A stretch of 64,000 bases of DNA from Fimbriiglobus ruber (GTDB lineage Bacteria > Planctomycetota > Planctomycetia > Gemmatales > Gemmataceae): assembly GCF_002197845.1 (NCBI RefSeq), contig NZ_NIDE01000001.1:1364001-1428000 (forward strand). Reading direction: 5' to 3'. The notes under the pieces are model-generated. The model was given only the letters and a program-made list of their open reading frames with translations. It did no database searches and was not told where the DNA came from. A program made the translations under genes and the position numbers. This document shows positions 33,453 through 47,640 of this stretch, piece after piece (position 1 is the stretch's first letter; the number at the start of each line of letters is the position of its first letter).

Positions 33453-34823
33453 TTAAGTCATCATTTCCGCGATCGGTCTTCCCCACGGCACAAGTAGCGA
33501 CGGGCGGTCGAATCGGTCCTTCAGCTCGGTGTCGGCCGGGATGCCGAGGCAGGCGTAAATCGTGGCCACGATGTCGGCGGGCGTGACCGGGTTCCGGCTC
33601 GGCTTGGCCCCGATCTTGTCGCTCGCCCCATGAACGTACCCCGGCCGAATCCCACCACCAGCCATCATGAGCGAGTAGCAGAAGTTCCAGTGGTCGCGGC
33701 CGGCACCGGCGTTGATCTTCGGCGACCGCCCGAACTCGCCCATGACTACAACGAGGGTACGGTCGAGCATTCCGCGGTCGGAAAGGTCCGTGAGAAGGGC
33801 AGAGATTGCCGAATCCAGCTGTGGAAGTAACTCGTTCTTCAGTTTCTTAAAATTCCCGCCGTGCGTGTCCCAGGTGGCGTTGGCGTCGGGCGCCCAGGAG
33901 ATGCACGCCGCCCGGCTACCGGCCTCGATCATCCGTCTGGCGAGTAGAACGCTCTGGCCGTAAATGTTCCGCCCGTAGGCGTCCCGCGTCTTCGGGTCTT
34001 CCCGGTCGATGCGCACCGCCTGCTGCATCGCGGGTGAGGTGAGCAGGTCGTAAGCCTTCGCGCAAACGCCGTCCATGTCTTGAAGGGCGCGGTCGGCAAG
34101 TGAACCAGCTGGTGATTGAAGGTGGGCGATCAGTTGCCGCCGGGCATTGAAGCGAGTCGGGTCGAGGTCCGGGTTCATGGTCAATTCGGGCATGCCGAAG
34201 TCGGCCGCGTTCGGGTTGCGGAGAACCCAGAGCGGGTCGCGCGGCTTGCCCAGCCACCCGCCGAAAAACCCCGGCTGCGGCGGCCCGCCGGCCCCTTCCT
34301 GGGTGACGAACGGCAATGCCACGTATGGCACGACGGGTCGGTCCGGCGGGCGGAGCATACCGAGGACGGAGCCGATCGCCGGGTGGTCGGTCGGCTTCGC
34401 CCCGCCGCCGTTCTCGCCCCGATCGTGGCCGGTCAGTCCGCAGTAGACGGCGGCCGCGTGCGAGTTGTTGACGCCGTGGTGCGCGGACCGGATGAGGGCC
34501 GCGCGGTGCATGTGCCTGGCCATCCGCGGCAGGTGTTCGCCGAACTGGACGCCGGGCACGGTCGTCGCGATCGGCTTGAACTCGCCCCGAATCTCGGCCG
34601 GCGCGTCCGGCTTGAGATCCCACATATCCAGGTGCGACGGGCCGCCATCCAGGAAGACGAGGATGCACGCGTCGGCCGTCGTGTGCGTTCCGCTGCGGTT
34701 CCGCGATTCTTCGGCGCGAAGCAATTTCGGGAGCGATATTCCGAGAGCCGACGCGGCACCGACCTGGAGCAAGTGGCGCCGCGAGACGCGCGGACCGGGG
34801 CACGGGGAGAGAGAGTCTGACAC
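33453..34823 (-). CDS. DUF1501 family exported protein
   Basis: A 456-residue protein with a twin-arginine-like signal (SRRHLLQVGAASALG) followed by the DUF1501 domain, which belongs to the alkaline-phosphatase/sulfatase fold. Recognisable blocks are LVFLDGGPSHLDMWDLKP, GVQFGEHLPRMARHM, SAHHGVNNSHAAAVY and VVMGEFGRSPKINAGAGRDHW. It is probably exported folded. GTG at 34823 is chosen because GAGGG lies at the right distance; a TTG two codons upstream would sit on top of that site. In planctomycetes DUF1501 genes accompany DUF1549/DUF1553 genes, and such a gene is present at 35571, here in divergent orientation. Substrate unknown. Confidence 0.9.
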   Translation of the reverse strand: MSDSLSPCPGPRVSRRHLLQVGAASALGISLPKLLRAEESRNRSGTHTTADACILVFLDGGPSHLDMWDLKPDAPAEIRGEFKPIATTVPGVQFGEHLPRMARHMHRAALIRSAHHGVNNSHAAAVYCGLTGHDRGENGGGAKPTDHPAIGSVLGMLRPPDRPVVPYVALPFVTQEGAGGPPQPGFFGGWLGKPRDPLWVLRNPNAADFGMPELTMNPDLDPTRFNARRQLIAHLQSPAGSLADRALQDMDGVCAKAYDLLTSPAMQQAVRIDREDPKTRDAYGRNIYGQSVLLARRMIEAGSRAACISWAPDANATWDTHGGNFKKLKNELLPQLDSAISALLTDLSDRGMLDRTLVVVMGEFGRSPKINAGAGRDHWNFCYSLMMAGGGIRPGYVHGASDKIGAKPSRNPVTPADIVATIYACLGIPADTELKDRFDRPSLLVPWGRPIAEMMT

Positions 34824-34928
34824 GATCAACCCTCAGAGTGAGGAGGGATGGCAGGAAAGCTCATCATCCTTCAAATGGAGGGATAAATCAACAGAGCGAC
34901 AGAAAAGATTCACGCCTCACACCGGAGA

Positions 34929-35317
34929 CCGGTGCCTGGTCATGTGGACGGGTTCTGTGGGATGACGTCTTGGGGCTCGGCCCCAAACCCCGCCGGAGGG
35001 GTCGGACCCCTCCGGACCTCCCTTCTGCTCCCGATCAGGGGGGCGATCCCAAAAAGCGGATCGCCCCCCTGATCGCTCGCGGAGCCGTTTATTGATCCAA
35101 CAGGAACCGAGCGAGTCGTCGCTGTATCCTCACCTCACGAACTGTCGATGTCCTCTTGTCTCACGAACCGTCGCTGTCTTCCCGCCGCAATCAACCCTGG
35201 CCCCTGCGAGCGACCCGCGGACGAATCCGCTCTGGGATTCGTCCGCGGGTCGGGAGCAAGAAGGGAGGTCCGGAGGGGTTCCACCCCTCCGGCGGGGTTT
35301 GGGGCCGAGCCCCAAGA
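34929..35317. mobile_element. Structured repeat element with variable-stem hairpins, copy A
   Basis: The outer arms (about 34969-35022 and 35263-35316) are reverse complements. They contain two small hairpins each, TTGGGGC-TCG-GCCCCAA and CCGGAGGGGT-CGG-ACCCCTCCGG. Between them are two perfect 17-bp hairpins: 35033-35049 with 35058-35074, and 35212-35228 with 35235-35251. The conserved parts of the second are the reverse complement of those of the first, but the central 9 bp of each stem differ. No open frame is carried. A second copy is at 47301-47640. It lies between divergent DUF1501 and DUF1549/DUF1553 genes; the rest of 34824-35570 holds only promoters. Confidence 0.8.
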
Positions 35318-35570
35318 TGCTCCTGGAATTCTCAGCTACCTACCCGATTGCTGACGACCGCTTCAATCGCTGGACAGAGGGCCACTGACGAGTCAGTGCA
35401 GAGGATCGGAGTGCCTGTTCGATGCCGCCTCGTTCTAGCGATTCGTAGAGGTTGCCACTTGTTGCCCGAAATCGGCTAAGATGACCTTTCATTCCGACAG
35501 ACAACTGCCCCGACTGTCGGAACGATCGATCGGAATGATTCAACGCCTTCGTGTGGAGTCACGTCTCGTG

Positions 35571-47214: not shown

Positions 47215-47300
47215 GATTTCGTCCGGGGACCGGGAACGGGCACCCCGTCAGGTTACGAGATGAAGACAGGAAGCGAAAGGAAGTTGGTCGGGGGATGCTA

Positions 47301-47640
47301 CCGGTGCCTGGTCATGTGGACGGTTTTTTGCGGGGTAACGTCTTGGGGCTCGGCCCCAAACCCCGCCGGAGGGGTTGAACCCCTCCGGACCTCCCCACTT
47401 GCTCCCGACCCGGTGAAGAATCCCAGAGCGGATTCTTCACCGGGTCGCTCGCGTGACCGCTTGTTTCCCAACAGGAACCGAGCGAATGAGCGAGGTCTTC
47501 TTGCCGTAGTCAACTCAGGCCCCTGCGAGCGATCGGTGGGTCGATCCGCTTTGGGATCGACCCACCGATCGGGAGCAAGTGAGGAGGTCCGGAGGGGTTC
47601 AACCCCTCCGGCGGGGGTTTGGGGCCGAGCCCCAAGACGC
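47301..47640. mobile_element. Structured repeat element with variable-stem hairpins, copy B
   Basis: The left edge GGTGCCTGGTCATGTGGACG and the outer arms (47342-47395 and 47584-47638) match copy A at 34929-35317. The two inner hairpins are 47407-47423 with 47430-47446, and 47531-47547 with 47554-47570, each a perfect 17 bp. Their 9-bp stem cores differ from each other and from both in copy A, while the closing ends (GAYC, ATCC) and flanks (GCTCCC, GCTCGCG) are shared. AACAGGAACCGAGCGA between the modules is also shared. It fills the gap between the helicase gene and the DUF11 protein gene; nothing else is seen in 47215-47692. Confidence 0.8.

Follow-up and report, generated by a model that had tools for sequence, protein, structure and literature searches.

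In the ends of IS200/IS605 elements and in integron attC sites, the pairing of a hairpin matters as much as its sequence; target duplications of 8-11 bp are not expected of movement of the IS200/IS605 type. Compensatory changes in stems are usually read as evidence of selection for structure, and an RNA under such selection is expected to pass through G-U pairs. REP sequences, palindromes of 20-40 bp, carry an unpaired tag, GTAG or CGTC, on one side. Mutation by template switching is reported to leave inverted loops, extended stems and stem changes that mirror each other (PMC8794818), and, when it takes place between inverted repeats, homogenised arms and inverted spacers (PMC8604942). For REPINs, changes that compensate each other across the two sides of the hairpin are reported as well (PMC3116915); they were interpreted there as selection for a hairpin, which we count against copying.

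Here, we have analysed a locus of Fimbriiglobus ruber, copy A, together with a second copy (copy B) in the same window, that is, the whole stretch of 64,000 nucleotides under study. The original prediction held that the hairpins of these copies keep their pairing while their sequence changes, and it offered two readings, either recognition of a folded single strand or template switching, with one arm being copied to make the other. Both copies belong to a new family of a known kind of element (REPIN/MITE-like), with an unusual architecture.

A family of nested hairpin elements

The two stems of copy A, claimed to be perfect over 17 bp, are indeed perfect (35032-35049/35058-35075 and 35211-35228/35235-35252) and reach 18 bp each once the outer C-G pair is included. 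Two further perfect stems occur, as announced, in copy B (47406-47423/47430-47447 and 47530-47547/47554-47571), also of 18 bp each with the closing C-G, and a scan of the whole window for the frame GCTCCCGAYC-N9-ATCC with zero mismatches returned exactly these four sites. The inverted outer arms of copy A, 59 nt long and 97% complementary, were likewise recovered. The extent given for this copy had to be revised, the element being longer (about 34928-35382), with P and Q ends outside the arms (Table 1). The conserved flanks beside the stems, GCTCC and CTCGC, are moreover able to pair across the element. The P end of copy A faces the start of a DUF1501 gene at 33453-34829 on the minus strand (gene by Pfam). 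Relative to the spacer, the X and Y classes of the third hairpin are swapped in copy B with respect to copy A.

Table 1. Parts of copies A and B, in positions of the window
Feature	Position	Strand	Basis
Copy A, P end (ACCGGTGCCTGGTCATGTGGACGG...GATGACGT)	34928..34968	.	comparison of flanks of 34 copies
Copy A, left half-unit: H1, H2, H3 class X	34969..35081	+	alignment A1, model R1
Copy A, H3 class X: 18 bp perfect stem, 8 nt loop CAAAAAGC	35032..35075	+	
Copy A, spacer, closed through CTCGC/GCGAG pairing	35082..35204	+	
Copy A, right half-unit: H3 class Y, H2, H1	35205..35316	-	
Copy A, H3 class Y: 18 bp perfect stem, loop CAGAGC	35211..35252	-	
Copy A, Q end, outer terminus diverged	35317..35382	.	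Q-end DNA search, match 35322-35382
Copy B, P end	47297..47341	.	
Copy B, left half-unit, H3 class Y	47342..47453	+	
Copy B, spacer	47454..47523	+	
Copy B, right half-unit, H3 class X	47524..47636	-	

The genome (12.36 Mb) contains 50 exact matches of the frame (27 + 23) and none of a reversed control pattern, so the copies are not due to chance; at least one of the 50 is solitary and lacks an arm (C3:230134, L103). A blast search of the genome with copy B gave 93 pieces, and 40 of 67 candidates were scored, so that the family count, at least 34 full elements and three single half-units, is a lower bound. Two of the elements (L075 and L093) are nearly identical including their flanks and were counted once, which leaves 33 elements and 69 half-units for the analyses below. 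With at least 33 full elements found by the whole-genome search, a chance likeness or a curiosity confined to two copies is ruled out.

The element is about 0.4-0.5 kb long and consists of a fixed end Q, two inverted half-units around a spacer and a variable end P, in line with the inverted orientation that had been described for the two modules of each copy. The half-unit, of about 112 nt, forms three hairpins and reads CTTGGGGCTC[G/T]GCCCC (H1), AAACCCCG, H2, ACCTCCC, GCTCC, H3 and CTCGC. Two classes of H3 can be told apart: class X, with the consensus CGATCAGTGGGTCGATCC and a loop that is mostly CAAAGC, and class Y, with the consensus CGACCCGCGGACTGATCC and a loop that is mostly CAGAGC. Most elements contain one X and one Y; L097 and L101 have two X. 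By eye, and uncounted, the arm is often preceded by letters such that CGTC is read (ACGTC, GCGTC), with GAGTC or GAGCC in other copies.

Individual loci show further arrangements. At L070 (about 1360-1514), the P end together with the first part of the arm is repeated in tandem directly at the element edge, giving four arm starts with a spacing of 45 nt, and near position 10089 of L107 (G000:C2:908087) a solitary arm start lacks the H3 hairpin. The spacer of L087 encloses a different palindromic repeat (GTGGGGGCACGTTTCCAACGTGCCC..., 1744-1815), which reached 37 bits with a microRNA hairpin model whose gathering score is 79. Between the two half-units of L092 lies a 162-aa open frame (1715-2200) without Pfam or NCBIfam match; its homologues are a protein of 71% identity (L267), which belongs to a different genus of the family, and two weak ones at 26-27%, and the frame has probably been captured or enclosed rather than being the mover of the element.

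Pairing of the H3 stems

Among the 69 H3 stems (all half-units except those of the near-identical locus L093), 59 are perfect, one of them (L079_l) only if the apex pair is counted into its 8-nt loop, and ten contain mismatches; 48 distinct sequences are represented. Unpaired cores are thus far from common, and the stems are not identical across copies, both as the original prediction supposed. For the 54 stems that are 18 bp long, changes from the consensus were counted in each arm: class X (n=29) shows 1.69 and 1.76 changes in the two arms vs 0.31 mismatches, and class Y (n=25) 2.28 and 2.16 vs 0.20, that is, 3.5-4.4 changes per stem over both arms for 0.2-0.3 mismatches.

The covariation was quantified on alignment A1, whose 55 of 71 half-units are a selection biased towards pairing (it omits five extended or rebuilt stems, three duplicates, three stems with mismatches or indels, two odd arm starts and the three single half-units); there, 12 of the 18 H3 pairs are changed on both sides, 98.8% of the cells over the three helices pair, and double-changed cells in all three helices number 218, vs 54 in shuffles. 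One of five measures fails to rise above the shuffles, the count of further pair types being 32 vs 32.5. Three G-U cells fall in a single column of the alignment and, as we read it, belong to 17-bp stems whose register is shifted by a gap.

The mismatches in the 69 stems comprise seven A-C or C-A, three T-C, three A-A, one C-C and two G-T, both of the latter in a single stem that carries a 1-nt insertion. The seven transition mismatches outside this indel stem are all A-C on the half-unit strand, equivalent to G-T on the other strand, and never G-T; this asymmetry is not predicted by plain copying. The apex (ATCC/GGAT), the CG at the stem base and much of the loop are conserved around a variable stem middle, from which some constraint beyond copying follows.

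Likeness between arms and inverted interiors

Several kinds of coordinated change were found at the level of the H3 hairpin. The same base pair is absent from both arms in two X stems (L076_l and L098_r), and four elements (L075, L076, L080 and L099) have a longer palindrome because GGGAGC, which is the opposite flank in reverse complement, now stands in place of the inner flank GCTCGC. The same flank change accompanies a new short loop in L088, and in L075 the loop is inverted as well. The outer arms resemble each other within an element more than between elements, with 98.1% vs 91.4% identity of the H1-H2 segment; they are identical in 16 of 33 elements, vs 1.2 for shuffled partners (maximum 6 in 10,000 shuffles), and the variable letter of the H1 loop (34 G, 32 T) is concordant within the element in 33 out of 33 cases. 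In L073 and L083, the likeness continues outwards past the arms (by eye). Finally, six of the 16 copies with clear ends have an interior or spacer that is inverted with respect to P and Q, and some of these six may derive from one shared event; orientations were counted only where the ends score clearly (>=20 for placement, >=40 for inversion).

Mirrored multi-base changes, loop inversion, stem extension and spacer inversion, by which template switching is recognised, are thus all present. We think it likely that the family represents a non-autonomous insertion element whose stem pairing is made by arm-to-arm template-switch copying at the DNA level. The element would insert beside gene starts, duplicating a target of 8-11 bp, and the replication polymerase, on meeting an extruded hairpin, would switch template and copy one arm from the other, so that the hairpins would be repeatedly restored to perfect pairing at the DNA level after insertion. 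Such copying would act at three scales: in the H3 stems (mirrored changes), between outer arms hundreds of bases apart (homogenised) and in the interior (inverted). Of the two readings originally offered, that of arm copying is therefore the well supported one, through the mirrored deletions, the flank extension, the loop inversion, the homogenised arms, the inverted interiors and the scarcity of G-T pairs. We infer that template switching in replication, rather than selection, is the main cause of the pairing.

Predicted folding of the single strand

As single-stranded DNA, copies A and B are predicted to form a long arm-to-arm stem that meets the two H3 hairpins and a stem of the spacer in a four-way junction, with zero unpaired bases at the crossing (z-scores of -18.0 for copy A and -19.5 for copy B). 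The outer closing GCTCC pairs across the element at five or more of six positions in 32 of the 33 elements, and the inner closing CTCGC pairs across the spacer in 26; extended or rebuilt palindromes account for five of the seven inner failures.

This fold keeps folded-strand recognition alive as a rival account of why the stems pair, according to which every copy has to be bound by a HUH/Y1-type or other enzyme in the form of a hairpin or of a four-way junction, with selection maintaining the pairing. The conserved apex, loop and stem base around a free middle would agree with it, as would the compact junction and the closing pairs, the outer ones being better kept than the inner ones; the low number of G-T pairs fits a DNA rather than an RNA hairpin, and the genome has three Y1_Tnp genes. 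However, when a co-occurring transposase was sought, as the original prediction had suggested, element-like sequence was absent from all three Y1_Tnp loci (about 3.3 kb each), nor was a RAYT gene flanked by the element found among them, and a Y1 link was consequently rejected. The direct repeats of 8-11 bp described below also speak against this reading, and five elements have lost their inner closing stem to an extended or rebuilt palindrome, a change that selection for the junction would oppose. We consider this reading, which keeps the support of the conserved apex and base and of the four-way junction, rather unlikely. One of the Y1_Tnp genes adjoins a perfect 31-bp palindrome with a 4-nt loop (L174, about 1872-1937), which is unrelated to the element.

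Ends, direct repeats and movement

The Q end spans about 75 nt and has a sharp terminus (GAGGGGCTTGCCCTC inwards), whereas the P end is variable in length. A direct repeat of 8-11 bp is present in six of the 11 copies with an intact Q terminus, vs three of 352 cross pairings, and it is on this ground that we regard the element as inserting; two more of the 11 copies match at eight of nine bases. This test was designed after the result of a wider one on 22 copies, where at least nine common bases were found in six copies vs 3.2% of cross pairings, and at least eight in eight copies vs 9.5%. In the six repeat-bearing copies, the repeat starts at the Q terminus (with a 2-base offset in L095) and recurs 48-69 nt outside the P-side arm. 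No inverted likeness exists between P and Q: among the 16 copies whose ends are clear, right-end scores are 24-65, with the exception of one weak P end at 11, and scores with the wrong end 6-14. A search with the Q end, which would have revealed an autonomous partner sharing it, matched element copies only.

These data bear on how the element moves, a question distinct from that of why its stems pair, so that the likelihoods given to readings of the one kind and of the other are not additive. A classical MITE, moved by a DDE transposase acting through terminal inverted repeats, would likewise be small, repeated, mostly non-coding and bordered by direct repeats of this length, but the dissimilarity of P and Q, the variation of the P end among the repeat-bearing copies and the confinement of the Q terminus to element copies make this origin improbable. 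Target-primed reverse transcription, as in a SINE with Q as the RNA 3' end, would account for one fixed and one variable end and for duplications of varying length, and the genome has 16 reverse-transcriptase matches, 15 of them above cut-off. However, no reverse-transcriptase gene has Q as its tail, given that this end occurs in element copies only, and the differences between P ends are not simple truncations. To our knowledge, no SINE-like retroposon of this type exists in bacteria, and we see very little chance that this reading is correct. The insertion element with template-switch copying that we favour would presumably be moved by an enzyme acting in trans.

Placement beside genes

The 33 sites comprise 23 between tandem genes, nine between divergent genes, none between convergent genes and one with an unreadable neighbour, and a gene start adjoins the element at all 32 decidable sites. 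Open reading frames were called by a simple GC3 script, the neighbours of L078, L079, L080, L097 and L102 being decided by eye; by this script the 33 elements are intergenic, and an open frame enters the element at L078, L080 and L102. Among copies with clear ends, 17 tandem sites are decidable, and at 16 of them the P end points towards the gene start; the sole exception is L067, in which the P end is weak. The neighbours, named from ten scanned proteins (only pieces for eight of them), are mutually unrelated: a DUF1501 protein and a PSD1/PSCyt2/PSCyt1 protein for copy A, a DEAD helicase for copy B, and ThiS, ribosomal L21, an EF-Tu-type GTPase, CPSase, PEPCK and a mandelate-racemase-type protein for other copies. 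A transcription terminator is unlikely, with no convergent site among the 32. A structured leader RNA or attenuator upstream of genes, the remaining proposal for why the stems pair, would suit this placement and orientation, but the practical absence of G-U pairs, the inverted interiors, the unrelated neighbours and the lack of an Rfam match above the gathering score at five loci leave it with hardly any probability.

Distribution and a wider hairpin motif

A covariance model run on 94 other genomes of the same family (40 candidates scored per genome) gave one weak match (E 0.008), and the frame pattern occurs in relatives in chance-like numbers, one to three matches in 12 of 58. The two genomes of the same genus that were searched are without the element, and the arm 22-mer is found in none of 296 other genomes of the same class. 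The exact H3 pattern has no match in the GTDB species collection (own genome excluded) nor in IMG/VR, and blastn with copy A against plasmids and phages yielded no match at E 0.01. At five loci, Rfam searched at E up to 1 returned six matches, all far below the gathering score, and a known RNA family was thereby dismissed. Literature searches on the motif letters, on planctomycete palindromic repeats and on Gemmata or Fimbriiglobus repeats turned up nothing on the element, nor a paper with the motif letters in a bacterial context. The statement that no named element has this design therefore stands as far as Rfam (five loci), plasmids and phages (copy A by blastn) and the literature were searched. 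We conclude that this is a real multi-copy insertion element, seen to date in a single genome and apparently restricted to its lineage.

The H1-H2 part is a case of a wider motif, of which a near-identical stretch is present in an Oscillospiraceae MAG; the 51-mer from the latter has four plasmid matches, of only 22-23 nt. In IMG/VR, 13 of 69 sites (those readable among the loci listed, of 98 stretches) have beside GGGGCTCnGCCCCnnACCCC a second stem that pairs perfectly over 8 bp or more, with 0.15 expected from shuffles and two in an upstream control. This two-hairpin motif of unrelated sequences, GGGGCTCnGCCCCnnACCCC-G-[stem], is similar to the H1-H2 part of the arm, and its second stem varies yet pairs; unlike the element, it goes without the H3 pattern in IMG/VR, and the perfect second stem is missing at 56 of the 69 sites. 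A single 202-kb viral contig carries three double hairpins of the GGGGCTC type (L136, L138 and L143), with the same second stem and different loops.

Discussion

Taken together, these results describe a family of elements with direct repeats, mirrored stem changes, extended palindromes and inverted interiors. As 33 related copies are available in one genome, one may ask how much covariation mutation alone creates, and the family most likely preserves natural traces of a mutation process that tends to escape observation. There is a slight chance that a folded Holliday-junction-like strand (or an RNA, SINE-like template) is recognised by an enzyme and inserted upstream of genes in one orientation with a duplication of 8-11 bp, its pairing being renewed by template switching. 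That the element would then belong to a class of mobile elements without known bacterial counterpart is a similarly doubtful proposition. If true, the four-way junction would be the working part of the element. The junction architecture, together with the biased placement at gene starts, also offers a well-defined target for finding the moving enzyme.

With regard to known systems, the element resembles in design REPIN and REP sequences (BIMEs), which are extragenic and consist of two inverted palindromic units and a spacer (PMC3116915, PMC3733652). Paired, inverted and extragenic palindromic units are also the plan of the 33 full elements, although the half-unit, with about 112 nt and three hairpins, is far from the 20-40 bp of a REP, and, unlike REPINs, the element has two ends, P and Q, that are asymmetric, as well as direct repeats of 8-11 bp and copies without an adjoining Y1 gene. 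The last two features separate it from IS200/IS605 elements as well, which leave no target site duplication, while repeats were found here in six of 11 copies. Bacterial MITEs share with the element its short length, its dispersed and intergenic location and its target duplications; the element departs from them in the absence of terminal inverted repeats, in its nested inner inverted repeats and in having one variable end. As to process, template-switch mutation (quasipalindrome correction) is reported (PMC8794818, PMC8604942) to cause mirrored changes, stem extension, loop inversion, arm homogenisation and spacer inversion, as seen here. What distinguishes the present case from known quasipalindrome correction is that it concerns a whole mobile family, within one genome and at three nested scales at once.
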